IMG/VR virus record: IMGVR_UViG_3300021519_000062
Location: 1 to 25,848 of that record
Length of the DNA stretch: 25,848 nucleotides
From: a virus
Strand: one strand, 5' to 3'
A model generated the notes under the pieces. It saw only the letters and a list, made by a program, of their open reading frames with translations, made no database searches and was not told the DNA's origin. Positions 313-18,205 of the stretch are shown here, piece by piece. Within the stretch, counting starts at the first letter, position 1. Every line of letters starts with the position of its first letter. The translations under genes were made by a program, and so were the position numbers.

Positions 313-1257
313 ATGAAAACCACAGATTTAGCACCAAACAAAATTGAAGAAGCCCCAATGGGTGCTTTGAGTAAAGTTGGAAATTATGTAGGATCTAAGC
401 TATCCACTTTTGCCCCTGACCTTGCTGCAAGATCTACCGGAAAATTAAACACCGGTGCAGTTGCAAATAAAGCATGGAGTGGTTATCAGAGCTTTTTAGG
501 TCAAACAGGCGAAAAGCCAACAACATCAAATATTATATTATGGTTACAACATAATAAGTATTCACCAGATGCTATCAAGGCCGCTGAGACTGTGTTAAGA
601 GATGCCGCTAGAGCAGCCGGGCAAGCTACCAAAGATGCCGCTGCAAAACAAGCAGAAAAAGACAATCCACAATTACAAACATTTTCCGAACCAGCAATGG
701 GCGGAGCCTCAGCAAATCCGCCACCGGATGACATCGCAGAAAGTAAAAAACCAATGCATCATTTAGATATGATGCGTAGCTACTTAGATATCCTACGCGA
801 GTCCGACGATATAGTAGATGAAGCAGTTAAGTTCGCTAATGTTAGTCCAAAGACAGCATCACAAGCAATTATGGCGGCCGCTCAGGCTCAGGCCAAAGCG
901 CAATATGCACAACAACCAGCACCTGCCGCAACAGCAACTCCAGCACCTGCCGCAACAGCAGAACCAGCGGCACCTGCCGCAACAGCACCTGCCGCAACAG
1001 CACCTGCCGCACCGTCTGATGCACGTACAGATGCTGGTGCGCCAGACTTGCATTCGTTTGCTTCAAACTTCCACGAAGAACTGTTAGCTTCAAAATCAAA
1101 TGATCCTAAAACACGTAATTTACTAACAGCACTTGAGGCATATTTAGATACGTCGGAACCACTGAAAAAAGCCGCGGAGAGTCTTAACTTCTCGGAATCT
1201 TTTAATCCTGGAAAAATGTTGCAAAAGAAAGTTACCAAACTTACACGTATCAAGTAA
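313..1257 (+). CDS. Putative virion protein with Ala/Pro-rich repeat region
   Basis: 314 residues, not recognised as a named family. The ATG at 313 follows AGGA at 301-304 and a late promoter octamer, which suggests a late structural role. The N-terminal ~110 residues are mixed and helical. A low-complexity Ala/Pro/Thr stretch at about residues 195-240 is built from near-identical APAAT units, so it is probably an unstructured linker. The C-terminal ~75 residues (from about DLHSF) are predicted helical and end in a basic tail. Two L/I-x-E sites, IAE-S and LRE-S, occur near the middle. T4-type prohead proteases cut after L/I-x-E, so processing during head maturation is possible but unproven. 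It is followed by a nucleotidyltransferase/ligase block, and a head-internal or scaffold-like role is a guess from that context. Confidence 0.7.
   Translation: MKTTDLAPNKIEEAPMGALSKVGNYVGSKLSTFAPDLAARSTGKLNTGAVANKAWSGYQSFLGQTGEKPTTSNIILWLQHNKYSPDAIKAAETVLRDAARAAGQATKDAAAKQAEKDNPQLQTFSEPAMGGASANPPPDDIAESKKPMHHLDMMRSYLDILRESDDIVDEAVKFANVSPKTASQAIMAAAQAQAKAQYAQQPAPAATATPAPAATAEPAAPAATAPAATAPAAPSDARTDAGAPDLHSFASNFHEELLASKSNDPKTRNLLTALEAYLDTSEPLKKAAESLNFSESFNPGKMLQKKVTKLTRIK
919..1011 (+). repeat. Tandem 15-bp coding repeats (Ala-Pro-Ala-Ala-Thr units)
   Basis: The 18-mer GCACCTGCCGCAACAGCA occurs at 919-936, 943-960, 970-987 and 985-1002, and a partial copy is at 1000-1011. The last three overlap on a 15-bp period. 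The copies are in frame and encode PAAT-type units of the 313-1257 protein. Nucleotide identity this high suggests recent slippage or unequal recombination that changes linker length. Confidence 0.9.
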
Positions 1258-1274
1258 AAATAAACGGACTATAA

Positions 1275-2069
1275 ATGTATCAATTGTTATATGAAGGTGG
1301 TAATGCAATTCCAACAAGTAGTCCGGTTAATCAGGAAGATGTGCCTACGGTAATTGCTATTGCTAAACGCGAAATGCCGCAAGGTCTTTTAAAGAACCTG
1401 CAAGCTGATATTGGTAGTGCTGGCTTTAAAGGTGTTCCTAGTGGCGACATTGACCTAATGGTTGAAGCCCAAGACTTGGTTGTTATATTTAAAACCGAAG
1501 ATGATAAAAAAGATCCAGTTCTTGCCGCCAAGAAATCTATGCAGACTTGGTTTACAGCAAAAAGTATTGAAGCCAATGTTAACGGCCGTAATGTTAGTAT
1601 TGGCATAAAATATAAACCTGCAGCAGGCGGGCAAGGCTACGCACAAGTAGACTTAATGGTTATACATGATGTTAATATTGTTGCACCCTGGCATCAACAC
1701 GGTCCACGTGGCATGTACAAGGATACTGGCTTTAAAGGACAACAGAACTTTGTATTAATGGCCAGCATCGCTAAACATCTCAATTTAAAGTTTGATCCGT
1801 TTGGCGCAAAATTAATTAACCGTGATACCAATGAAGTAGTTGGTCGTACACGTAAAGAAGTTGCTAAAATTTTACTTGGCCCAAAAGCAAAAGAAGATGA
1901 TCTTAACAGCGTTGGCACTATGCTTGCCGCATTGGAAAGTGATCCTGACAAAGATAGTAAGTTAGCCCAAGCCAAACAAGATCAGGCCAAAGGACTACTA
2001 ACATTGCCCGAAGCATCGCCCACCCCGGGAACAGCCGCGTGGTTTAGAAAGATGGGCCATGCGTTATGA
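1275..2069 (+). CDS. Nucleotidyltransferase-fold protein (pol-beta-like superfamily)
   Basis: 264 residues. The nucleotidyltransferase signature is visible: G47-S48, then the metal-binding pair D58-x-D60 in the stretch PSGDIDLMV, and a third acidic residue, D126, in YAQVDLMVI. This G-S...D-x-D...D layout is that of the DNA polymerase beta / MNT superfamily, which moves nucleotidyl groups onto nucleic acids, proteins or small molecules. The substrate cannot be read from the sequence. The N-terminus MYQLLYEGG contains L-Y-E followed by G, which matches the L/I-x-E cleavage consensus of T4 prohead protease near the start of an internal head protein. The gene overlaps the next nucleotidyltransferase by ATGA (2066-2069), so they are translationally coupled. 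Fold assignment is fairly sure; function is unknown. Confidence 0.72.
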   Translation: MYQLLYEGGNAIPTSSPVNQEDVPTVIAIAKREMPQGLLKNLQADIGSAGFKGVPSGDIDLMVEAQDLVVIFKTEDDKKDPVLAAKKSMQTWFTAKSIEANVNGRNVSIGIKYKPAAGGQGYAQVDLMVIHDVNIVAPWHQHGPRGMYKDTGFKGQQNFVLMASIAKHLNLKFDPFGAKLINRDTNEVVGRTRKEVAKILLGPKAKEDDLNSVGTMLAALESDPDKDSKLAQAKQDQAKGLLTLPEASPTPGTAAWFRKMGHAL

Positions 2070-3082
2070 AAATAAGAGATATCATCCTTGAAGGTGGGTG
2101 GGATACTACTCTGACCCAGAACACCGTACTACATCCTAAGATCGTTGCAGTGGCTTTACAAGTAGTGGACAAGTTTGTCTCTGACTTTAATAAATTATAT
2201 GCCGGACAAGTTGGAGAAATACAGCGCGGTAGACCAACTGGATCCAGCGCCCATCACGAAATTGACACGCAAGAAGATCCAACTAAAGTATACGGCGACA
2301 TTGACTTACAAATGATTGCACCCGAAGCTGAAGGACAAGGTTATACACAGTTCACAGCACAGTGGAATAAGTTAACTGATGATTTTGTTAAAGCCGGACA
2401 TGCACCGTATGTAGACACAAGCGAGAGCAAGCCAGGTCATCCTATATTCCAAGTTGGACCAAAGCAATTTGTACAAATAGATTTTATGTGGCACCCAGAG
2501 AGATTACGTAAATGGGGCGCCAGTCGTGTGACTCCTGAGCGCGGAGTAAAAGGATTATTGCATGGTAATATGTTTAGTGTACTAGGCGAACTACTTGACC
2601 TAAGCATACAACATGCTGGTGTACAATTAAAAGTGATTGATGGTCAACATGTTCCCTTTAGCAAACAAAAAGGTGCAGAAGTTGTTACGGTATCAACAGA
2701 GCCAAGCACTTTTATCTACGACATATTTGCGTACGAAGCGCAACAGCTTGGAATTAAAAAACCCAAGGTTGACTCTATACTAAAACGATTCCCGGGCAAT
2801 GATCTAGATGATGTTAAGATTAGTAAACTAGTCAATGGCATCAAAGGTTTTGCACGTAGTTGTGAAGCAAACGGAATGTTTGGCCAAGGCGACTTAACTA
2901 ACTTTACATCAGCAAGAGATTTCCTAAATAAGTTCTGGAATCGATATAATGAAAAAGCACAAATTGATATTGCTGGCAAGAAACGCGATAAGGCACAAAC
3001 ACCAGATGCCATAGCAAGAGCCAATAGTGATAGAGAAAAGATACAGCAAGGGCTTGACATGGTAAAAGGATTATTCGCATGA
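2066..3082 (+). CDS. Second nucleotidyltransferase-fold protein
   Basis: 338 residues. It carries the same three-part signature as the gene before it: G59-S60 in GRPTGSSAHHEI, D78-x-D80 in VYGDIDLQMI, and D139 in FVQIDFMW. It is therefore another pol-beta-type nucleotidyltransferase, longer and otherwise divergent from its neighbour, with about 200 extra residues that are mostly predicted helical. The N-terminus MKIRDIILEGGW fits the pattern of T4 internal-protein leaders: M-K, then an acidic residue, a hydrophobic pair, x, E and a small residue, with an I-L-E/G cut site. It overlaps both neighbours by ATGA. Chemistry is inferred from the conserved residues; the target (tRNA, protein or small molecule) is unknown. 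Confidence 0.72.
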   Translation: MKIRDIILEGGWDTTLTQNTVLHPKIVAVALQVVDKFVSDFNKLYAGQVGEIQRGRPTGSSAHHEIDTQEDPTKVYGDIDLQMIAPEAEGQGYTQFTAQWNKLTDDFVKAGHAPYVDTSESKPGHPIFQVGPKQFVQIDFMWHPERLRKWGASRVTPERGVKGLLHGNMFSVLGELLDLSIQHAGVQLKVIDGQHVPFSKQKGAEVVTVSTEPSTFIYDIFAYEAQQLGIKKPKVDSILKRFPGNDLDDVKISKLVNGIKGFARSCEANGMFGQGDLTNFTSARDFLNKFWNRYNEKAQIDIAGKKRDKAQTPDAIARANSDREKIQQGLDMVKGLFA

Positions 3083-4170
3083 AACTAGAATTTATCAACA
3101 GAATTTTAGTTGAAGCTAGAGCAGGCGCACAACCTCATCCAGAAGATAGTATATTTGACGGTGCCGCAGCAGCTAATACAGCACTAGAAAGTTTAAATTA
3201 CGTAATCAAAAATCCACAATCCATTACAATTAAATTTGATGGATTCCCGGCATTGATATTTGGTCGTTTACGTGATGGCAGATTCACAGTACAAGACAAG
3301 TATATGTTTGATGCCAAATATTTTGCCGATAGTCCGCAAGCATGGCAACAATATGATAGCCAAAAGAAATCAGGTAAACTACGTCCAGACCTATACACTA
3401 AGTTGACCAATATTTGGAAAGGACTTGAACAAGCAGTAGGATCAAGTCCCGGCTTTTTCTGGGGAGACTTGTTATGGTGGGAAACATTGTCACCAATTAA
3501 AGGAAAGTTTGTATTCAAACCAAACGTAGTTGAATATCGTGTGCCTGTTAAAAGTAAATTAGGAACACAGATAGCAGGTAGAGTTGGTGGCGTGGTTGTA
3601 CATCAATACTTTGCCGATGAATCTGCATCACCGGTGCAATGGAACGGTAAAGGACTTGTACTTGATGGCTCGGTTACTATACTAACACCAAGCACAGGCA
3701 TTACATTTACATTGAACGATCCAGTACAATTATCAAAAGGTGCCAAGGCTGCTGTTAGCCAATACGGCAAAGTAACAGAGGATTTCCTCAACGGCCTTGA
3801 TGGGGTTGCTAGGCAAGCTATACAAAAATATTGTAACAAACGTATTACGGGACAAACTAATTCTGAATTGGTTGATTGGTTGCGAGAACCAGCAAATATT
3901 AGTGCAAAGCAATTTAAAACCTTAGTAGGTGAAGAAGGCAATGGTTACTTGTCTCAACAAATTAACGGAGTCAAAGGGCTATTCCTTATATGGAATGCAA
4001 TCTACGCATTTAAAGAAAACCTGGCACAACAGCTAGAACAGCAAGTGCAGGGGCTTGAGCAATGGGTAGGAAATAAGCAAGAAGGTGAAGGTTTTGTGTT
4101 TAACACCCCGCACGGGCTGGTTAAACTGGTGCAACGAGGTACTTTTAGCCAGGCGTTGTTTGCTAAGTAA
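3079..4170 (+). CDS. Ligase-superfamily (KxDG) nucleotidyltransferase-like protein
   Basis: 363 residues. Motifs of the covalent nucleotidyltransferase (DNA/RNA ligase and capping enzyme) superfamily are present: K52-F-D-G55 in TIKFDGFPAL (motif I, with the lysine that would be adenylylated), FFWGDLLWW at about 126-134 (possible motif III), E337-GFVF near the C-terminus (motif IV) and LVK349LV (motif V). It resembles, from memory, a phage family of unknown function (DUF6267) with the same KxDG and EGFVF signatures. The gap between motifs III and IV is unusually long, about 200 residues, so this is not a standard ligase. The N-terminus has L-V-E/A at residues 10-13, a possible prohead-protease site. 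It ends the 313-4170 block. Confidence 0.68.
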   Translation: MKLEFINRILVEARAGAQPHPEDSIFDGAAAANTALESLNYVIKNPQSITIKFDGFPALIFGRLRDGRFTVQDKYMFDAKYFADSPQAWQQYDSQKKSGKLRPDLYTKLTNIWKGLEQAVGSSPGFFWGDLLWWETLSPIKGKFVFKPNVVEYRVPVKSKLGTQIAGRVGGVVVHQYFADESASPVQWNGKGLVLDGSVTILTPSTGITFTLNDPVQLSKGAKAAVSQYGKVTEDFLNGLDGVARQAIQKYCNKRITGQTNSELVDWLREPANISAKQFKTLVGEEGNGYLSQQINGVKGLFLIWNAIYAFKENLAQQLEQQVQGLEQWVGNKQEGEGFVFNTPHGLVKLVQRGTFSQALFAK

Positions 4171-4202: not shown

Positions 4203-4210
4203 TATAAATA
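4203..4210 (+). promoter_or_regulatory. Consensus T4-type late promoter TATAAATA
   Basis: Exact match to the T4 late -10 octamer, in a non-coding gap, 39 bases before the ATG at 4250. A strong ribosome-binding site, AAGGAG, lies at 4237-4242. With the terminator at 4665-4694 it makes the 4250 gene a self-contained late unit. Confidence 0.75.
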
Positions 4211-4249: not shown

Positions 4250-4645
4250 ATGGCAATTTTTACACGTACAGCAGGTGATGCACAAGGCGTTAACAACGTT
4301 GATGCAACAACAGCAGGTGCTTTAGGCACAATCGTAGCAACAGGTTTAACAAAGAACCCAACAGCAATTAAGATTACTTTGGCAAACAGCCAGGTGTTCA
4401 CAGCAGCTGAAAGTGGTACAGGCGGCGCAGTAGAAACAATTTTACGTTCTATCGCTATCGATTCCACAATCGTTATGTATCAAGCTGATACATCACAGTT
4501 GAGCGTTCTAGTTGAAGCAACAGGTAGCGCAACAGCAACTATACAAACACGTATCCAAGCTCTTGGTAACGTAGGTGTAGCAGCTAACGTATATTGCGGC
4601 CTGGGTGTTGCAGTAGCCAGTTCAAACGGTTTCAAACTAGCTTAA
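4250..4645 (+). CDS. Small Ala/Thr-rich putative virion structural protein
   Basis: 131 residues, rich in Ala, Thr, Val and Gly, with few charges and alternating beta-strand-like stretches. There is no signal peptide or convincing membrane segment. AAGGAG at 4237-4242 lies 7 bases before the ATG. The gene stands alone between a perfect TATAAATA late promoter and an intrinsic terminator, an arrangement expected for an abundantly made structural protein such as a head decoration or tail component. The family is not recognised, so the role is inferred only from composition and transcriptional layout. Confidence 0.72.
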   Translation: MAIFTRTAGDAQGVNNVDATTAGALGTIVATGLTKNPTAIKITLANSQVFTAAESGTGGAVETILRSIAIDSTIVMYQADTSQLSVLVEATGSATATIQTRIQALGNVGVAANVYCGLGVAVASSNGFKLA

Positions 4646-6988: not shown

Positions 6989-7414
6989 ATGCGTATCAAA
7001 GAAATTATTAATGAATCAGATCTAATAGAACTCGATGTAATCGAAGACGAGGCAGATACTCGCGGTGACTCGTCTTTAATAACTACACTAGAGTGGCTTC
7101 GCAACGAAGCTAATCAAAGTGGTGCTGTAACTCCGCGTGTTAAAGTTGACACAGTAATTGATCGTGTACGTGCTATTCCTGGTAACGAAGCATTTAACTT
7201 TGCTGCCTTAGAAGCCGCCCATGAACACAATGATACTGTAAAAGGCTTAATTAAAGATATCAAAGACGATGACCATACTGGTTCAAAGTACGTATATCTA
7301 GCACCACCTGAAAATACAATTGATAATTCAGACCCATTGGGTGCTTCCACAGCCGCTCCGGGCGATCCAGCCAAAGTTGTTAGCCAAATGGCTAAACGTG
7401 CTGCCTCCAACTAA
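6989..7414 (+). CDS. Putative virion or head-associated protein with capsid-targeting-like N-terminus
   Basis: 141 residues. The N-terminus MRIKEIINESDL has the same pattern as the 2066 protein (MKIRDIILEGGW): M, basic, I, basic, acidic, I-I, x, E, then a small residue. That fits an I-x-E/S prohead-protease site. The rest is acidic, with a central helical part (RVKVDTVIDRVRAI) and KYVYLAPPENT, and a small-residue-rich C-terminus. Family not recognised. It directly follows a probable structural gene and is followed by a sigma70-type promoter that starts a different unit. Confidence 0.68.
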   Translation: MRIKEIINESDLIELDVIEDEADTRGDSSLITTLEWLRNEANQSGAVTPRVKVDTVIDRVRAIPGNEAFNFAALEAAHEHNDTVKGLIKDIKDDDHTGSKYVYLAPPENTIDNSDPLGASTAAPGDPAKVVSQMAKRAASN

Positions 7415-7631: not shown

Positions 7632-8006
7632 ATGGCATACTCAGAAAAAGTAATTGATCACTACGAGAATCCTCGTAATGTGGGCTCGTTTGATAAAACA
7701 GATAATGACGTGGGAACTGGTATGGTAGGCGCACCGGCCTGCGGTGATGTAATGAAACTACAAATAAAGGTGGAAGATGGCATTATCACAGATGCGAAAT
7801 TTAAAACTTACGGATGTGGCTCTGCAATCGCTAGCAGTTCGCTCGTCACTGAATGGGTCAAGGGCAAAACGCTGGAGCAAGCAGGAAGCATTAAGAATAG
7901 TGAGATTGCGGAAGAACTCGCATTACCGCCAGTCAAGATTCATTGCAGTATACTTGCGGAAGATGCGATCAAAGCCGCAATAGCAGATTATAGAAGTAGA
8001 CACTAA
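7632..8006 (+). CDS. iscU: IscU-like Fe-S cluster assembly scaffold
   Basis: 124 residues, full length for IscU. This scaffold builds [2Fe-2S] clusters from sulfur supplied by IscS, then hands them on with HscA/HscB help. All key residues are present: C37, D39, C62, H104, C105, and the HscA-recognition motif LPPVK at 98-102. Long stretches (MAYSEKVIDHYENPRNVGSF; KIHCSILAEDAIKAAIADY) match what I recall of E. coli and other proteobacterial IscU, which suggests recent acquisition from a host. No good Shine-Dalgarno; the start matches cellular IscU exactly. Its stop overlaps the kinase start (TAATG, 8004-8008). The middle of the gene has somewhat higher GC than its neighbours. Confidence 0.95.
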   Translation: MAYSEKVIDHYENPRNVGSFDKTDNDVGTGMVGAPACGDVMKLQIKVEDGIITDAKFKTYGCGSAIASSSLVTEWVKGKTLEQAGSIKNSEIAEELALPPVKIHCSILAEDAIKAAIADYRSRH

Positions 8007-8467
8007 TGCCAACTGCATATATTTTAGTCGGAGTTCCTGGGTCTGGTAAAAGCACTTGGGCAAGTAATCAAGAATGGTTTAAGGATTGCTCGTACATTTC
8101 TACAGACTCTTGGATACACCTTGAAGCCAACAAACAAGGGAAAACATATAGCGAGGTATTTACTGACTATATGCCCAAGGCCGTTCATATCATGACCGAA
8201 CATGTGATCCTTGCTAGAGAAGCAGAAGCAGATATTATTTGGGATCAAACTAGTACAACTATTACTAGTCGTAAAAAGAAATTTAATATGCTACCAAATT
8301 ATAAAATGATTGCGGTAGTGTTTCCTACACCTGATCCATTGGAACTTAGTATTCGATTAAAAAATCGGCCAGGTAAAGAAATCCCACAGGATGTACTTAA
8401 TAGCATGATTGATGGATGGGAAGAACCAAGCGCCGATGAAGGTTTTGATGAGATTTGGCTGACATGA
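8006..8467 (+). CDS. P-loop kinase, similar to the kinase domain of T4 polynucleotide kinase
   Basis: 153 residues. The Walker A motif is G9-VPGSGKST-17 near the N-terminus. An acidic residue at D34 (YISTDSW) sits where T4 Pnk has its catalytic Asp35. The C-terminal [12 protein letters not shown] resembles the Pnk lid region. T4 Pnk phosphorylates 5'-OH RNA/DNA ends and also has a C-terminal phosphatase; this protein is kinase-only. The position of Pnk Arg38 is occupied by Ile37, so the substrate may differ. The gene overlaps iscU at its start (TAATG) and iscA at its end (ATGA, 8464-8467). A kinase lodged between two Fe-S genes is unusual. Confidence 0.82.
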
Positions 8468-8784
8468 TTACATTAACGGAATTGGCCGCTAAAAAAGTAT
8501 CAACAAACTTACAAAAACGTGGTAAGGGGTTGGGAATTAGGCTTGGTGTAAAAACTACCGGATGCAGTGGCTTAGCCTATGTAGTCGAATATGTAGACAC
8601 CCCGGCTGAGGTAGATGTACATTTTGTTAGCCAAGATATTCAGATATTTGTTGATCCCAAAAGTCTTGCATATTTAGATGGTGTAGAATTAGACTGGGTT
8701 CGCAATGGACTCAATGAAGGGTTTGATTTTAAAAATCCTTTAGAAAAAGATCGATGCGGATGTGGGGAGAGTTTTCGCATATGA
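8464..8784 (+). CDS. iscA: IscA/HesB-type A-type Fe-S carrier
   Basis: 106 residues from the ATGA overlap at 8464. The frame is open upstream to a TTG at 8455, but the ATG gives the usual IscA N-terminus MITLTELA. The three cluster-binding cysteines are present: C34 in TTGCSGLAY, and C98 and C100 in the C-terminal CGCGESF. A-type carriers receive Fe-S clusters from the scaffold and pass them to target enzymes, so IscU plus IscA is a functional pair. HesB/IscA-like genes are known from aquatic phages, whereas a linked full IscU is less familiar. The next gene starts inside its stop (ATGA, 8781-8784). Confidence 0.93.
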
Positions 8785-9866
8785 TGTTAGTGTATAGTGA
8801 TAGCAACATTATTGATACTCAGTGGCTCCCTAATATAAAGTTCAACCAAGAATACATTGTTTGCCATAGTTTTGAAGAATACCTAAACACACCAGCTGAC
8901 ATAAAAATAGCATTTACCACACATCGTTTGCATTGTGACTACGATGTTAACTGTCCAGCATATCAAGGTTTTGAAGATAAAATAAATCAACTTAGTGCCA
9001 TTAGCAAGTTTGTATTTACATTTGAAAGTGAATTACACAATTTCCATTGGAAGATATGGGAGAAGTGCCATCACAACAATGTATACTGGTTATTACCCGG
9101 TGCAGTAAACGACAGAGAAGATATTAACAGCCATATCATTTATTGGGGAGACTGGTTTAAAACAACATCATCTCTATATAAGCAATTGCCCAACAAGTTA
9201 GCAGAGTTAACTCCGTATGCCAATAAACCTTTTATGTTTGATGCATTGCTTGGTGTTATAAAGCCACATAGAGATTTTGTATATAGCACAGTTAAGTTTC
9301 ACAATCTCGATGATAAGTTTATAATGACCTATGGCGGCAAGTGGCAAGATACAGAATTTTATGCTAAAGATTATTTTATTTGGGAACCAGAATGTGTGCC
9401 AACTGGTCCAGTTATTGGAACAGCAGATGCTGTGCATTACTGTGGTATATACACAGGGTTAAGCAGAGTAATTCCCTTAAAGGTATTCAATGATACAGCG
9501 TATAGCATTACTACAGAAACAGATTACGACAATACATTAAGTTTCTTCAGTGAAAAAACAGCCAAGCCGTTGGTTGCACGTAGATTGTTTATTGCATTTA
9601 CTGGTTATAAATTTTTACAGAATTTACGTAACTTAGGATTCCGCACGTTTGGAAATGTAATTGACGAAAGCTATGATTTAATTGAAAATGATAACGACCG
9701 ATATCTTGCGGCGTTTGATCAAGTACGTCTTCTATGCAATGCAAATCAATCTGACATACTTGAACAGATAAAACCTGCACTAGAACATAATTATAATTTA
9801 ATTATGAATACAGACTGGAATTCTCGTGCCGCAAATCAAATAACCGATACAATTAATTGTGTTTAA
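8781..9866 (+). CDS. Conserved phage protein, possible glycosyltransferase
   Basis: 361 residues from ATG 8781, which overlaps the iscA stop; an ATG at 8754 lies further inside iscA and is less likely. The C-terminal part has FFSEKT (S257-T260)[13 protein letters not shown], then NLGFRTF...DESYD. In other phages and bacteria I associate the pattern SEKT-x-KP...LGF-x-TF...IDESYD with glycosyltransferase-like proteins. The N-terminal ~200 residues are Tyr/Trp/His-rich and not recognised. There is no membrane segment. If it is a glycosyltransferase it could modify host or virion glycans; the neighbouring SGNH hydrolase gene would fit that. The assignment is tentative. Confidence 0.6.
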
Positions 9867-10599
9867 TACGTTCTGTTATTATTTGTGCCCACTTACTCTG
9901 AGCTTCTGCACCAGGATGAAACTTATCATCCTGCCAACTATCTAATTCCTTGGCAAGTTCAAATACACCATCCTTTTGTTCGTTGGTAAAAATCCAACGA
10001 CTGAAATCAAGTTCGTCAACTAAGAACTGTAGATCTGGGTATCGGTAAACCCCAAAGTCTCCGTTCTTACTGACACGCTCTTCGGTGGACCAGTAATTAA
10101 CATAACTCATAAAATGATATGGTATTTTTTTAGCAACTAAAAAGTTTTGCAGCTTAACCATCTCCATTAAGTTTATTGTTCCTAGACTTAATTCGCTACT
10201 TACTTTATACATCTCTTTAAACATTTGTTTGGCCACAGGATGATTATTCCATGTACCTACACCGCCGCCGCTAAAAATGTATCCTAACTTATTATCGGGC
10301 AATCTACGATAAAATCCATAACTGTCAAACAGTTCATTCCATGCCGGATCTTCAATGCTGGTTAAGTAATCTAATCGACTAACACCAGACCACATTACTA
10401 GCACATGATCTGGACGATTTTTTAATACAGACCGTATTATGCTATCACAAATATATTGATTGCCAGCGGCCGCTTCTGCAACAGAGTAACATTGATCAGC
10501 TGGATTCAGTTCTTGGAAGTACCTGGGCCAACATATATTTGGGCCACCTGGGAAATCGGGCCACTGGGTAAAACTACATCCAGATATGAGTATATTCAT
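9853..10599 (-). CDS. SGNH/GDSL-type hydrolase (copy 1, lone minus-strand gene)
   Basis: 248 residues. SGNH features are: G7-CSFT near the N-terminus (block I nucleophile S9), AAAG46-N47, VMWSG, and D225-x-x-H228 (DKFHP) as the C-terminal catalytic pair. This family hydrolyses esters, often acetyl groups on glycans. It is a clear paralog of the 17462 protein: both have FSGG, YVNYW, IDFSRWIF-type and FHP blocks. It is the only convincing minus-strand gene in the window and its 3' end overlaps the plus-strand 8781 gene by 14 bases. There is no Shine-Dalgarno; a late octamer on the same strand (10612 to 10605) ends 5 bases before the ATG, implying a leaderless late mRNA. Confidence 0.85.
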   Translation of the reverse strand: MNILISGCSFTQWPDFPGGPNICWPRYFQELNPADQCYSVAEAAAGNQYICDSIIRSVLKNRPDHVLVMWSGVSRLDYLTSIEDPAWNELFDSYGFYRRLPDNKLGYIFSGGGVGTWNNHPVAKQMFKEMYKVSSELSLGTINLMEMVKLQNFLVAKKIPYHFMSYVNYWSTEERVSKNGDFGVYRYPDLQFLVDELDFSRWIFTNEQKDGVFELAKELDSWQDDKFHPGAEAQSKWAQIITERIKHN

Positions 10600-13232: not shown

Positions 13233-15533
13233 ATGACAACAATTCAAGTAACGAAACGAGAAGGCCACAGGGAAAATTTAAATTTAGAGAAGCTACACAA
13301 GGTAGTTTTTTGGGCCACGCAAGGCATCACTGGCGTTAGCGCCAGTGAAGTAGAAATTAAAAGCCACATCCAGTTTTACAACGGAATCAAAACAGCAGAT
13401 ATCCAGGAAACACTGATTAAAAGTGCCGCAGACTTAATTTCGGAAGAAACACCAAATTATCAATATGTAGCTGGTCGTTTGATCAACTATCATTTACGCA
13501 AACAAATTTACAATAGTTATGACCCATGGCCACTAATTAAATTAGTCAAGCTCAATGTAGAATCGGGATTTTACGATCGTGCATTGCTTGAAGCGTATAC
13601 AGAAGAAGAATGGAATACATTAGATTCGTTTATCCATCACGATCGTGATGAAAACTTTACCTATGTGGCCATGGAACAATTCCGTGGCAAGTATCTGGTG
13701 CAGAATCGTGTCACTGGTGAAATATTTGAAACACCGCAAATGGCCTATATGCTTATTGCGGCAACATTGTTTCAAACATATCCAACCGAAACACGATTAA
13801 AGTGGGTGCGTGATTACTATGATGCTATCAGCTTATATGACATTAGCCTACCTACTCCTGTTATGGCTGGTGTACGTACTCCACAAAAACAATTTAGTTC
13901 CTGTGTATTAATTGAAACAGGCGATAGCCTAGATAGTATCAATGCCACAGCAAGTAGCATAGTTCGTTACGTTAGCCAAAAGGCCGGTATCGGAATTGGC
14001 GCTGGGCGCATCCGTGCCCTCGGTAGTCCCATCCGCAATGGAGATGCATATCATACTGGTGTGATCCCTTTCTATAAACATTTTCAAACAGCCACCCGTA
14101 GTTGCAGTCAAGGTGGTGTGCGTAACGGTGCCGCAACATTGTATTATCCAATTTGGCACTATGAAGTAGAAGACCTTCTTGTATTGAAGAATAACAAAGG
14201 CACAGAGGATAATCGTGTACGCCACATGGATTACGGCGTCCAATTCAACAAATTAATGTACGAAAGACTCATCTCTGGAGGCGAAATTACATTGTTTAGC
14301 CCCCACGATGTACCTGAAATGTACGAAGCCTTCTTTAATGATCAAGATAAATTTAAAGAGTTATACGAGCGAGCAGAACGTAGTACGAAGTTGCGTAAGA
14401 AAACCCTCAAAGCAATTGAGTTATTTGGTAAGTTTATGCAAGAACGCAAAGACACCGGACGCATTTACTTACAAAACGTAGACCATGCAAATACTCATAG
14501 CCCATTTGATGAATCAGTTGCGCCAATCAAAATGAGCAACCTTTGTGGGGAGATTGACCTACCCACCGTGCCATTAAACGATGTCAACGACGAGGATGGT
14601 AGGATTGCGCTCTGTACCTTGAGTGCGATCAATTGGGGCAATGTAAAAAGCCCACATGACTTTGAGAAGATGTGCCGCCTAGCTGTACGTGGTTTAGATG
14701 CATTATTAACTTATCAGAACTATCCAGTCCGAGCAGCAGAACTAGCAACAAAAGAATTTAGACCATTAGGCGTGGGTATTATTAATTTTGCCTATTTCCT
14801 GGCAAAGAACGATGTTAGTTATTCAGATCCAAAAGCACTGGCGTTAGTAGACGAGTATGCTGAGGCATGGAGTTATTACTTACTCAAAGCCTCAGCTGAT
14901 CTCGCCGTTGAACAAGGTGCCTGCACCCGTTGGAAAGATTTAAAATCAGCAAAAGGTCAATTACCAATTGACACACGAAAAATTGAAGTTGATGAATTAG
15001 TACCACATCAAGAACGCATGCCGTGGACAGAATTACGTGAACAAATCAAGGCTACTGGTCAGCGTAATGCTACCCTAATGGCTATAATGCCGGCGGAGAC
15101 AAGTGCTCAAATTAGCAACGCCACAAACGGTATTGAGCCCCCACGTAGTTATGTTAGCATTAAGGGCAGTAAGCATGGACAATTGCGTCAAGTTGTTCCA
15201 GAGTTCCGTAGACTGAAAAACAAATACGAATTACTTTGGGATCAAAAGTCGCCCGAAGGCTACTTGAAGATTTGTGCCGTCCTACAAAAGTATATTGATC
15301 AAGGTATTAGCATTAATACAAGTTACAATCCAAGATTTTACGATGATGAAAAGATCCCAATGAGTGAAATGTTGGGACACTTGATTATGTGTTATAAGTA
15401 TGGCACCAAGCAATTGTATTATTTTAATACAATGGATGGGCAAGGCGAAATTGATGTTAATAAGCCCAGTGCTGAACTTAGTGTTGAGACCACTGCAGAA
15501 GACCAAGAAGAGTGCGATAGCTGCGTGATATGA
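13233..15533 (+). CDS. nrdA: Class Ia ribonucleoside-diphosphate reductase, alpha subunit
   Basis: 766 residues, normal NrdA length. It reduces NDPs to dNDPs. An N-terminal ATP-cone (about 4-95) implies dATP/ATP allosteric control. Catalytic residues line up with E. coli with an offset of one: C224 and C461 (active-site pair), N436, C438 (thiyl radical) and E440 in MSNLCGEI, and Y729-Y730 (radical relay). The C-terminus ends ECDSCVI, giving the shuttle pair C761/C764 as CxxC, which passes electrons from glutaredoxin. It starts 9 bases after the previous stop with a weak AAGAGAA ribosome-binding site and overlaps the next gene by ATGA (15530-15533). Together with nrdB (16335) and the glutaredoxin (18227) it gives a complete dNTP supply module. 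Confidence 0.97.
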   Translation: MTTIQVTKREGHRENLNLEKLHKVVFWATQGITGVSASEVEIKSHIQFYNGIKTADIQETLIKSAADLISEETPNYQYVAGRLINYHLRKQIYNSYDPWPLIKLVKLNVESGFYDRALLEAYTEEEWNTLDSFIHHDRDENFTYVAMEQFRGKYLVQNRVTGEIFETPQMAYMLIAATLFQTYPTETRLKWVRDYYDAISLYDISLPTPVMAGVRTPQKQFSSCVLIETGDSLDSINATASSIVRYVSQKAGIGIGAGRIRALGSPIRNGDAYHTGVIPFYKHFQTATRSCSQGGVRNGAATLYYPIWHYEVEDLLVLKNNKGTEDNRVRHMDYGVQFNKLMYERLISGGEITLFSPHDVPEMYEAFFNDQDKFKELYERAERSTKLRKKTLKAIELFGKFMQERKDTGRIYLQNVDHANTHSPFDESVAPIKMSNLCGEIDLPTVPLNDVNDEDGRIALCTLSAINWGNVKSPHDFEKMCRLAVRGLDALLTYQNYPVRAAELATKEFRPLGVGIINFAYFLAKNDVSYSDPKALALVDEYAEAWSYYLLKASADLAVEQGACTRWKDLKSAKGQLPIDTRKIEVDELVPHQERMPWTELREQIKATGQRNATLMAIMPAETSAQISNATNGIEPPRSYVSIKGSKHGQLRQVVPEFRRLKNKYELLWDQKSPEGYLKICAVLQKYIDQGISINTSYNPRFYDDEKIPMSEMLGHLIMCYKYGTKQLYYFNTMDGQGEIDVNKPSAELSVETTAEDQEECDSCVI
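13327..13348 (+). other. Perfect 9-bp hairpin inside nrdA
   Basis: TCACTGGCG (13327-13335) pairs fully with CGCCAGTGA (13340-13348) around a TTAG loop. It lies within codons 32-39 of nrdA, in the ATP-cone part. It is GC-rich against an AT-rich background. There is no T-run, so it is not a terminator. Confidence 0.7.
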
Positions 15534-16348
15534 AAACCCCTAGTTTGTTAGTTGCCGTTGGCTGTTCATGGGTCGCCGCCAAAGCGATTGATACAGAGCC
15601 AACGGCACTAACCTTTGATTGGGATCATGTTGAAGATCCGGCATTTGTGGAAAAACACAGCTTCGCTGGGTTATTGAAGCAGAAGCTTGGATTGGACCAA
15701 ATACATTTTATTGCCTCTTCGGGTGATAGTAACCAAGGGCAAGCTAGAAAATTAATTGATTTTTTAGAACATAACAAAGAACAATATTCTAAAATTTTTG
15801 TTCTTTGGGGCATCACTAGTATCTATCGTTGGGAAATGTATAGTAATACTACAAACCAACTTGAACCGTGTATTCTGCGATCTAAGAACAAAGATTTACT
15901 TGAAGAGTCGGAATATTATTTTAAACATTTTTGGAATAAAGAAAATTCTCTTAGAGATCTAGGTAGACAGATATTACTAGTTGACGCTTATCTAACGATG
16001 CATTCGATTGATCATTTATTTTTTAATAGTTTTGATCCTTATACATTGGATAATTTAAATATTACTTCAATTACGGATAGTACGTTCTATAAAATTAAAG
16101 AATCCCATAATGATATGTTAAGTTTGCTTTGTGCTAAACATGATGTTACAATTAGTAGCTCTAGTGTGCCGTGGCTCAACATACTAAGAAAAACACCAGC
16201 TGAGCAATTTCATAATAACACAATAAAAAACTTACAAGCCAAAGGATTACTTGATTGCTCTACTGCACATCCAACAGTCCGGGCACACGCCGATATAGCC
16301 ATTGGGCTACACGATTATATAAAAGGACATAACAATGAGCGTATTTGA
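15530..16348 (+). CDS. Divergent SGNH/GDSL-like hydrolase (copy 2)
   Basis: 272 residues. The N-terminal VAVG11-CS13-W resembles SGNH block I, SSGDSNQG is a possible block II/III region, and FVLWG is followed by a C-terminal STAH247-P. The expected D-x-x-H is replaced by S-x-x-H, with D242 two residues earlier, so activity is uncertain. It is less similar to copies 1 and 3 than these are to each other. It sits between nrdA and nrdB, overlapping nrdA by ATGA and nrdB by 14 bases. That breaks the usual nrdAB pair but keeps the unit translationally coupled. Confidence 0.72.
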   Translation: MKTPSLLVAVGCSWVAAKAIDTEPTALTFDWDHVEDPAFVEKHSFAGLLKQKLGLDQIHFIASSGDSNQGQARKLIDFLEHNKEQYSKIFVLWGITSIYRWEMYSNTTNQLEPCILRSKNKDLLEESEYYFKHFWNKENSLRDLGRQILLVDAYLTMHSIDHLFFNSFDPYTLDNLNITSITDSTFYKIKESHNDMLSLLCAKHDVTISSSSVPWLNILRKTPAEQFHNNTIKNLQAKGLLDCSTAHPTVRAHADIAIGLHDYIKGHNNERI

Positions 16349-17465
16349 TGCAAAACAAACTAAACACCATACAGAGAAACTAGCATTTTTAGATGAGACT
16401 GGCCCTGTTACTATTCAACGTTATGAAACAGTAAAGTATAAGCAATTTGACAAGCTAACTGATAAGCAATTGGGTTTCTTTTGGCGCCCAGAAGAAGTAG
16501 ATGTGCTACGCGATGCCAAAGACTTCAAGGAGTTGACTGAGTATGAACAACACATTTTTACAAGTAATCTTAAACGACAGATCCTTTTGGACTCTGTGCA
16601 AGGCCGTAGCCCTAATCTCGCTTTTTTACCTCTTGTATCAATTCCCGAATTGGAAACGTGGATTGAAACTTGGGCATTCAATGAAACCATTCACTCACGT
16701 AGCTACACTCACATTATTCGCAATGTCTATTCTGATCCTAGCAAGATATTTGATGAGCTCCTTGATATAGAAGAAATTGTTGCCTGTGCAAAAGAAGTGA
16801 GTCGGTATTACGATGCCTTAATCAATGATAGTTTATGGTATCAAATACTTGGGCAAGGCGTACACACAGTCAACGGTAAAAAAGTAACTGTGGATTTATA
16901 TGAACTTAAAAAGAAACTATGGCTCGCAATTAATTCGGCAAATGCACTTGAAGGAATACGATTTTATGTAAGCTTCGCTTGTTCGTGGGCATTTGCCGAA
17001 CTAAAGAAGATGGAAGGCAATGCCAAGATTATTAAACTTATATGTCGTGATGAAAATCTACATCTTGCAAGCACACAAACATTAATTAAATTGCTACCAC
17101 AAGACGATCCTGATTTTGCAAAAATTCAAAAAGAAACAATGCAAGAATGTACAGATTTGTTCTTACTTGCAAGTCAACAAGAAAAAGACTGGGCCAAGTT
17201 CTTGTTTAAAGACGGCAGTATGATCGGACTCAATGAAGTATTGTTGGCCCAATACATTGACTGGCTAACCTGCAAACGAATGACAGCAATTGGTCTTGAT
17301 TGCGGCATTAAGCCCAATGGTAGCAATCCTCTTCCGTGGACAGCAAAATGGATTGCAGGAAGTGATGTACAAGTTGCTCCCCAGGAAACTGAAATCACTA
17401 CATACGTGATTGGCGGTACTAAACAAGACGTTGATGGTAATACCTTTAAGGGCTTTAGTTTGTGA
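16335..17465 (+). CDS. nrdB: Class Ia ribonucleoside-diphosphate reductase, beta subunit
   Basis: 376 residues. It carries the diiron-tyrosyl radical cofactor that starts catalysis in NrdA. The iron ligands and radical residue line up with E. coli NrdB at an offset of two: D86, E117, H120, Y124 (radical), E206, E240 and H243. The block HSRSYTHIIRN and the block RDENLHL are typical. This is therefore a standard tyrosyl-radical enzyme, not a Phe- or Mn-only variant. AAAGGA at 16321-16326 serves the ATG. Its stop overlaps the GTG start of the next SGNH gene (GTGA, 17462-17465). Iron dependence fits with the phage also carrying Fe-S genes, though the diiron site does not need IscU directly. Confidence 0.97.
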   Translation: MSVFDAKQTKHHTEKLAFLDETGPVTIQRYETVKYKQFDKLTDKQLGFFWRPEEVDVLRDAKDFKELTEYEQHIFTSNLKRQILLDSVQGRSPNLAFLPLVSIPELETWIETWAFNETIHSRSYTHIIRNVYSDPSKIFDELLDIEEIVACAKEVSRYYDALINDSLWYQILGQGVHTVNGKKVTVDLYELKKKLWLAINSANALEGIRFYVSFACSWAFAELKKMEGNAKIIKLICRDENLHLASTQTLIKLLPQDDPDFAKIQKETMQECTDLFLLASQQEKDWAKFLFKDGSMIGLNEVLLAQYIDWLTCKRMTAIGLDCGIKPNGSNPLPWTAKWIAGSDVQVAPQETEITTYVIGGTKQDVDGNTFKGFSL

Positions 17466-18205
17466 AATTGTATGCCATTGGGTGTAGCTTTACCAATGGC
17501 CATCAACTTGCAGGTCCCGTGGGCGGTTGGCCATTGATCGTTGCTAACTCATTAAATGCAACACTAATTAATAATGGGCAATCAGCCGCAGGCAATACCT
17601 ATATAAGTCATAAACCTATATTAGACAATGTCAGTGCAGATTTAGCATTGGTTATGTGGAGTGGACTAACACGCAAAGATCTTGTAGTGGATTGCACCAA
17701 CCGCGTATTGATGTCGGTGTTAGATCAATACGGATACGTTGCCCCCGGCAACGAAAAAACAAAATATGTTTTTAGTGGCGGCATACGTGGTAGCTGGGAA
17801 AATAATTCATTTATTAAAGAAATATTTAAACCTCTTTACAAAGTTAGCAATGAACGTACAATGGCACAAGATACATTGCTTAATATCATTCAATTACAAA
17901 GTTATTTTAACCAAAACAAAATAAACTACATTATGAGTTCGTACGTTAACTATTGGACCGCGCAATCGCAAGTAGCTGATATTGATTTTGGAATTGGACA
18001 ATTTACAGATCTACATTATCTAATAGATCAAATTGACTTTTCTCGTTGGATATTTTTAAACGATAATAAAGACGGAATATACGAACTAGCAAAGCAAACA
18101 CCATTGGGTTTTCAATCAGATAATTTTCACCCGACGTATGCAGTACACGAGCAGTGGGCTGATTTGGTATTGAAAACTTTAAGCCAGAGAAACCTCCTGT
18201 CATAA
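17462..18205 (+). CDS. SGNH/GDSL-type hydrolase (copy 3)
   Basis: 247 residues from GTG 17462, which overlaps the nrdB stop; the product then begins MKLYAIGCSFT, in line with copy 1. SGNH features: S9 in GCSFT, SAAG44-N45, VMWSG, and D220-x-x-H223 (DNFHP). It is a clear paralog of the minus-strand 9853-10599 protein, with shared FSGG, KVSNE/KVSSE, YVNYW and IDFSRWIF/LDFSRWIF blocks, so one arose by duplication and moved strand. It probably removes ester groups from a glycan; the target is unknown. No signal peptide. Confidence 0.85.
   Translation: MKLYAIGCSFTNGHQLAGPVGGWPLIVANSLNATLINNGQSAAGNTYISHKPILDNVSADLALVMWSGLTRKDLVVDCTNRVLMSVLDQYGYVAPGNEKTKYVFSGGIRGSWENNSFIKEIFKPLYKVSNERTMAQDTLLNIIQLQSYFNQNKINYIMSSYVNYWTAQSQVADIDFGIGQFTDLHYLIDQIDFSRWIFLNDNKDGIYELAKQTPLGFQSDNFHPTYAVHEQWADLVLKTLSQRNLLS

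Follow-up and report, generated by a model that had tools for sequence, protein, structure and literature searches.

Three overlapping genes near the start of a 25,848-base viral contig (IMG/VR record IMGVR_UViG_3300021519_000062, hereafter the window) encode P0001, a nucleotidyltransferase predicted to resemble family X DNA polymerases (PolX), P0002, a second probable nucleotidyltransferase, and P0003, a protein likely to have a ligase-type fold, and each of them opens with a conserved, putative N-terminal leader resembling that found on proteins destined for the head of phage T4. The phage itself is T4-like and of aquatic or freshwater origin. Computation establishes the gene unit and its fusions, the invariance of the active sites, the conservation of the leader and, by modelling, how P0001 and P0003 fold; packaging and cleavage of the proteins, their enzymatic activity, a joint reaction and its substrate are what we infer. 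The explanation that we favour, and to which we give a nearly even chance, is that the trio would form a head-packaged, injected polymerase/ligase unit for end repair, with DNA as the substrate to which we lean. Both junctions between the genes are ATGA overlaps, and the three adjacent, coupled genes that a sequence-only reading of the window had placed at 1275-4170 are present with the open reading frames (ORFs) and overlaps it described, as are its nucleotidyl-transfer signatures (G-S...D-x-D...D twice, then KxDG...EGFVF...LVKLV), whose catalytic residues are invariant in 73, 46 and 83 non-redundant homologues of P0001, P0002 and P0003 respectively (Table 1).

Folds and active sites

P0001 carries the motifs GS (residues 47-48), GDID (57-60) and QVD (124-126), and G47, D58, D60 and D126 are invariant across 73 non-redundant homologues, in which the PolX motif GS...SGDxD...D is conserved as G47, S/T48, S56, G57, D58, D60 and D126; we take the spacing from GS to SGDxD to be the same as in Pol beta. 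With the AlphaFold2 model of the protein (predicted local distance difference test, pLDDT, 91.0) Foldseek returned 125 PDB matches at an expectation value (E) of 1e-3 or below, the top 50 of which are all family X polymerases, Pol lambda being matched at E 2e-6. Structural alignment (VIA) likewise gave 50 top matches that are all PolX, the best being the minimal PolX of African swine fever virus (ASFV; Z 9.5, root-mean-square deviation (rmsd) 3.3, 153 residues aligned of a 174-residue chain), with Z scores of 9.2 for Pol lambda, 9.0 for TdT and 8.7 for Pol beta. The predicted model contains both the palm and the thumb of a family X DNA polymerase. Sub-threshold matches to the Pfam PolX thumb (E 3e-4 to 5e-3 per record) occur in four related records, and the one that was mapped runs from about residue 163 of P0001 onward, which is the predicted thumb. 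No match to a PolX palm or thumb profile rose above the cut-off (best thumb E 3e-4 per record), the palm model PF14792 having none in 22 records, and we therefore term P0001 PolX-like rather than a member of PolX. The modelling thus supports a nucleotidyltransferase of Pol-beta-superfamily fold, family X DNA-polymerase-like in palm and thumb, which may act as a polymerase. An antitoxin-type MNT assignment is less favoured, since every structural match is PolX among the matches listed.

In P0002 the corresponding motifs are GS (59-60), GDID (77-80) and QID (137-139), with G59, S60, D78, D80 and D139 invariant across 46 non-redundant homologues. Its hhalign alignment to P0001 scores 41.2, whereas none of 40 controls made by shuffling columns or by reversal exceeded 23.8, and brings the three catalytic Asp columns of the two families into coincidence. 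Motif and profile similarity together make P0002 a probable Pol-beta-type nucleotidyltransferase, distantly related to P0001. Neither protein has a family in Pfam, PHROGs, NCBIfam or PADLOC, and sequence profiles of P0001, P0002 and P0003 found no meaningful match among PDB chains.

P0003 belongs to Pfam DUF6267 (PF19782; E 4e-28, 99.3 bits against a curated cut-off of 27) and also matches phrog_455, both of them families whose function is not known. Motifs I (KxDG), III, IV (EGxV) and V (Lys) of the ATP-dependent RNA/DNA ligase and capping-enzyme superfamily are present and conserved, invariance having been counted in 83 non-redundant homologues. When its AlphaFold2 model (pLDDT 91.3, with residues 1-16 below 50) was aligned by VIA, the 40 top rows were all RNA or DNA ligases, closely followed by capping enzymes; the Z scores, which below 8 can by themselves reflect a common arrangement or an unrelated fold, are 7.9 for a Naegleria RNA ligase (182 aligned, rmsd 3.9), 6.9 for T4 Rnl1, 6.6 for an archaeal DNA ligase, about 6.0-6.6 for DNA ligases and 4.2 for capping enzymes. 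Because this list is homogeneous and the KxDG, GD, EGF and Lys motifs are invariant and in the expected order, P0003 is likely, as modelled, to have the adenylation-domain fold of this superfamily. Compared with viral models, it has its first matches beyond DUF6267 in RNA ligases (Atu_ph07, E 1.4e-3), and the RNA_ligase model PF09414 had no match in 19 records. Of the folds foreseen in the sequence-only reading, those of P0001 (Pol-beta superfamily) and P0003 (ligase superfamily) are thus borne out by prediction, and that of P0002 stands on motif and profile; the catalytic residues, whose divergence in homologues that reading had named as its own grounds for refutation, are invariant in all three families.

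Table 1. Coordinates in the window of the three genes, their active-site motifs and leaders, and of two neighbouring genes (a slash marks the putative cleavage site; P3 and P1' residues are given with the number of homologues).
Feature	Position	Strand	Remarks
P0001 gene	1275..2069	+	264 aa
Putative P0001 capsid-targeting leader, MYQLLYE/GG	1275..1295	+	95 distinct homologues: P3 L79 I11 V5, P1' G92 S3
P0001 motif GSAGFKGVPSGDID, catalytic D58, D60	1413..1454	+	D58, D60 invariant in 73 sequences
P0001 third catalytic Asp, D126	1650..1652	+	invariant in 73 sequences
P0002 gene	2066..3082	+	338 aa
Putative P0002 capsid-targeting leader, MKIRDIILE/GG	2066..2092	+	58 distinct homologues: P3 I26 L26 V6, P1' G58
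P0002 GS...GDID motif (D78, D80)	2240..2305	+	invariant
P0002 third Asp, D139	2480..2482	+	invariant
P0003 gene	3079..4170	+	363 aa
Putative P0003 capsid-targeting leader, MKLEFINRILVE/AR	3079..3114	+	113/113 distinct homologues: P3 L84 I25 V4, P1' A68 G32
P0003 motif I, KFDG (52-55), K52 putative nucleotidyl-accepting Lys	3232..3243	+	K52, D54, G55 invariant in 83
P0003 motif III, GDLL (129-132), D130	3463..3474	+	D130 invariant in 83
P0003 motif IV, EGFVF (337-341), E337	4087..4101	+	E337, G338 invariant in 83
P0003 motif V, LVKLV, K349	4117..4131	+	K349 invariant in 83
Gene with possible leader MKTTDLAPNKIEE/AP and Pro/Ala/Thr-rich linker	313..1257	+	motif listing; homologues in few loci
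Syntenic gene, leader MRIKEIINE/SD	6989..7414	+	downstream in 30/31 loci

Gene order, fusions and distribution

Related loci present the genes in the order 1-2-3 (97 loci), 1-3 (77) or 2-1-3 (13), counts which express linkage and not frequency, since the loci were chosen by these genes and many of them overlap on the same contigs. In seven loci P0001 and P0003 form a single ORF, and in most of the rest they stand side by side. On sequence grounds this synteny, together with the P0001-P0003 fusions, supports the view that the three genes work as a unit. Alignment queries recovered at least 453 viral-contig relatives of P0001 and at least 232 of P0002, and a single-sequence query recovered 34 of P0003. 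The annotated phage collection yielded no match to P0001 or P0002 by tblastn and contains DUF6267 in 469 records, mostly cyanophages. A search of 84,980 genomes of bacteria and archaea found no relative of P0001 and one of P0003, in a metagenome-assembled genome contig.

Some loci encode P0003 in one protein with an HxGH nucleotidyltransferase (FGRMNPPTxGH; PHROG cytidyltransferase families), and the fusion of DUF6267 to an HxGH cytidylyltransferase/NMNAT-like domain in loci L046, L054, L058, L130 and others makes a curious pairing of ligase-type and NMNAT-type enzymes. P0002 is joined in L060-L062 with a GH19 chitinase/lysozyme domain, and in L042, L114 and L150 with an acetyltransferase domain which, from our own reading of its sequence, we take to be GNAT-like; the GNAT fusions carry a leader of their own.

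N-terminal leaders and head packaging

Each of the three families begins with a short hydrophobic stretch that ends in (L/I/V)-x-E and is followed by a mostly small residue, and the trio itself shows the form typical of T4 capsid-targeted internal proteins, with (L/I)-x-E before a small residue; the start of T4 IPII (MKTYQEFIAE/AR) served as the reference. The first ten residues of T4 IPIII are enough to direct proteins into the head of T4, whose internal proteins lose their propeptides by proteolysis in the prohead (PMC9026906). For the P0003 family the site was sought within the 28 residues upstream of HxED, the background being any such triplet in 32% of 28-residue windows elsewhere in the same proteins; the P0003 leader coincides with the low-confidence, unfolded start of the model. 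All seven P0001-P0003 fusions retain a site of the (L/I/V)-x-E type where their two parts meet, and in the GNAT-P0002 fusions a leader stands at the new N-terminus (MRAREFVVE/SN, MKIREVIVE/SI) with the E/GGW site still at the junction. Of 12 related long contigs, 6 encode a gp21-type protease, and the Gp23 capsid gene is also found in related long contigs; in the window, a 25.8-kb fragment, head-shell genes were not seen. Judged from the leader, P0001-P0003 would be packaged and cleaved, and the conservation of this cleavable-type sequence gives the earlier suggestion of packaged products much better support than it had.

The cyanophage members of DUF6267, which share the Pfam family and the active-site motifs of P0003, provide a point of comparison. 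Here DUF6267 (T4-GC 71) adjoins the cytidylyltransferase T4-GC190, a nucleotidyltransferase of the other, HxGH, fold where the trio has P0001 and P0002, of which tblastn found no relative in annotated phages. Near-T4 leaders are found on T4-GC190-family proteins of S-CREM2 (MKNFSSFLTE/AD), S-SM2 (MKSFFQFLSE/AQ) and S-RIM2 (MKKFSAFLTE/AE), and none on that of P-HM1. This family has been detected by mass spectrometry in virions of S-CREM2 (PMC10665884, Table 3) and also in those of S-SM1 (PMC3037559), and NMNAT-like proteins are reported from S-SCSM1 and S-CBWM1 virions (PMC9602691). The PF01909 nucleotidyltransferase gp156 is likewise among the proteins found in S-CREM2 virions (PMC10665884). 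As the authors of the virion work point out, such detections may include carry-over from caesium chloride purification. S-CREM2 gp160 was considered as a virion-detected DUF6267 protein and rejected, its sequence not being DUF6267-like. In the Methylophilales phage Melnitz, whose DUF6267 protein starts with a leader-like stretch, the gene upstream of DUF6267 (L226:4929-6014) has the leader MQGFKTFLSE/AK, and a TDILIGNMRFSLKIG stretch in its product resembles the PD-(D/E)xK nuclease motif.

Discussion

In the explanation that we favour, P0001, P0002 and P0003 would be made as precursors with a capsid-targeting leader of 7-12 residues, and drawn into the prohead core, and the gp21-type prohead protease would cut them after (L/I)-x-E; the trimmed proteins would stay in the mature head until they are ejected together with the phage DNA. 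Ahead of phage gene expression in the new host, P0001 and perhaps P0002 would supply nucleotides to a 3' end or a gap. P0003, having activated itself with ATP on Lys52, would then seal the break; the substrate would be gaps or ends of the incoming genome DNA arising from packaging or from host nucleases. We lean to DNA over RNA because the resemblance of P0001 to PolX extends over both palm and thumb, and because the protein would accompany the DNA into the cell. The substrate evidence is split, the structures pointing to PolX DNA polymerases for P0001 and to RNA ligases for P0003.

Several observations weigh against this explanation. The folds nearest to P0003 are RNA rather than DNA ligases and its best Z score lies just below 8, its Foldseek matches are weak (the best, a tRNA ligase adenylyltransferase domain, at E 0.17), motif III has Asp where Glu is usual, and the protein has neither an OB nor a DNA-binding domain. 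A DNA ligase and a polymerase of their own are usual among T4-like phages. The cyanophage DUF6267 proteins have no leader, so that packaging is not universal in the family; a loose version of the leader motif shows no genome-wide enrichment at protein N-termini in long contigs, and the strict pattern, which marks 14 protein starts in the window and three related long contigs where 0.9 would be expected, was chosen after examples had been seen and is partly post hoc.

We consider it somewhat unlikely that the packaged trio instead repairs RNA at the onset of infection, with P0001 and P0002 restoring nucleotides lost from tRNA ends and P0003 resealing tRNAs cut by host anticodon nucleases. To our knowledge, the phage RNA repair enzymes so far described are expressed early rather than packaged, and neither a kinase nor a phosphatase for end healing is conserved together with the trio; on the other side stand the RNA ligases that are nearest to P0003 both in structure and among viral models outside its family, and its lack of an OB domain, a feature that some RNA ligases share. 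There is also a precedent in large phages, where the Pol-beta-superfamily nucleotidyltransferase RlaP, encoded with an RNA ligase in a described RNA-repair system, is proposed to restore nucleotides lost from tRNA ends (PMC7824862). Neither P0001 nor P0002, however, matches the Pfam RlaP model at E<=1, and RlaP does not appear in the family listings of their relatives (one of which gives 25 of 33 families); the best structures for P0001 are thumb-bearing DNA polymerases, the ligase belongs to DUF6267 and not to Rnl1 or Rnl2, and the leader is of packaging type. Enzymes of the Pol-beta and ligase superfamilies can also move a nucleoside monophosphate onto targets that are not polynucleotides, and the injected trio might modify host proteins or small molecules (AMPylation, UMPylation, nicotinamide adenine dinucleotide-type chemistry). 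The NMNAT- or cytidylyltransferase-like partners of DUF6267 and the GNAT-like domain fused to P0002 fit such a role, as does the example of T4 Alt, a packaged enzyme that modifies host RNA polymerase (PMC9026906), but the P0001-P0003 fusion and the polymerase thumb suit polynucleotide ends better, and we regard it as quite unlikely. Least probable to us is that the conserved N-terminal site is no packaging signal and that the enzymes work in the cytoplasm during replication. The leader evidence comes from sequence, the cyanophage proteins lack the leader and the loose motif shows no enrichment, all of which would agree with that account; against it, three families share the position and consensus of the site, in the P0001 and P0003 models the leader is not part of the region folded with confidence, it reappears at the new N-terminus of fusions, and the leader-bearing neighbour of DUF6267 in relatives is detected in virions.

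The injected end-repair unit that we favour would be a variant of known themes: PolX with ligase, RlaP with Rnl, and the T4 internal proteins. ASFV PolX with the viral DNA ligase, and Pol lambda/mu with Ligase IV, likewise pair a polymerase with an ATP-type ligase fold, and nearly the whole chain of ASFV PolX aligns to the P0001 model; the trio differs in showing no significant sequence similarity to these systems, in the absence of OB and DNA-binding domains from P0003, in being phage-restricted, and in its occurrence as separate genes or as a fusion with a cleavage-type site. T4 IPI-III and Alt have, as the trio does, a short hydrophobic N-terminal leader ending in (L/I)-x-E before A or G and a neighbourhood of virion structural genes, and Alt too is an enzyme, whereas the enzymes of the trio are different ones, form a three-gene polymerase/ligase-type unit and are here predicted from their sequence to be packaged. 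It would go further, and seems to us fairly unlikely, to suppose that many T4-like aquatic phages inject a virion-borne PolX-type polymerase and ligase as a kit resembling non-homologous end joining, cut from head precursors, sometimes a single polyprotein split by the prohead protease, which would repair the incoming genome against host nucleases ahead of any phage gene expression. If the repair role is true, host entry defences that cut DNA or RNA would face pre-made repair enzymes, which would amount to counter-defence. The analysis offers a function-level hypothesis for DUF6267, with its 469 phage-collection records, and for the unannotated PolX-like family, with its 453 or more viral-contig relatives, and it suggests a rule by which (L/I)-x-E/(G/A) at residues 5-15 would predict head-loaded, injected proteins of T4-like environmental phages.

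Genes flanking the unit

Synteny downstream of the trio takes in the genes at 4250, 4684, 5677, 6283 and 6989, each shared by 29-30 of 31 loci, and upstream the gene at 29 is kept in 77 of 87. The products of 313..1257 and 6989..7414 are possible co-cargo of the trio (Table 1); within the former gene, upstream of the trio, lies a tandem Pro-Ala-Thr coding repeat (gcacctgccgcaacagca) at 900-1020. Two elements of the sequence-only reading, its late-promoter context and its kinase, were not sustained. A late promoter upstream of the trio is rejected: the T4-late-promoter motif TATAAATA has one copy in the window, where 3.2 are expected by chance, and this copy (4203-4210) sits 3' of the trio, ahead of the next gene. 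The Pnk-like kinase at 8006, which had been proposed as a partner in RNA healing, is a genuine AAA_33 P-loop kinase according to Pfam, and it is rejected in that role because none of the 31 related loci with at least 6 kb of downstream sequence carries it.

Iron-sulphur genes flank this kinase, one IscU/NifU-like (7632-8006) and one HesB/IscA-like (8455-8784), and both occur downstream in 23 of the 31 related loci. Proteins starting with GCSF or GCSW at 9853-10599 (minus strand), 15530-16348 (plus) and 17462-18205 (plus) look like scattered SGNH-type paralogues. Between 24256 and 25741 runs a series of short genes, apparently tandem paralogues, most of whose products start with MN(E/K/D)RI and end with HFGV(E/K)E.

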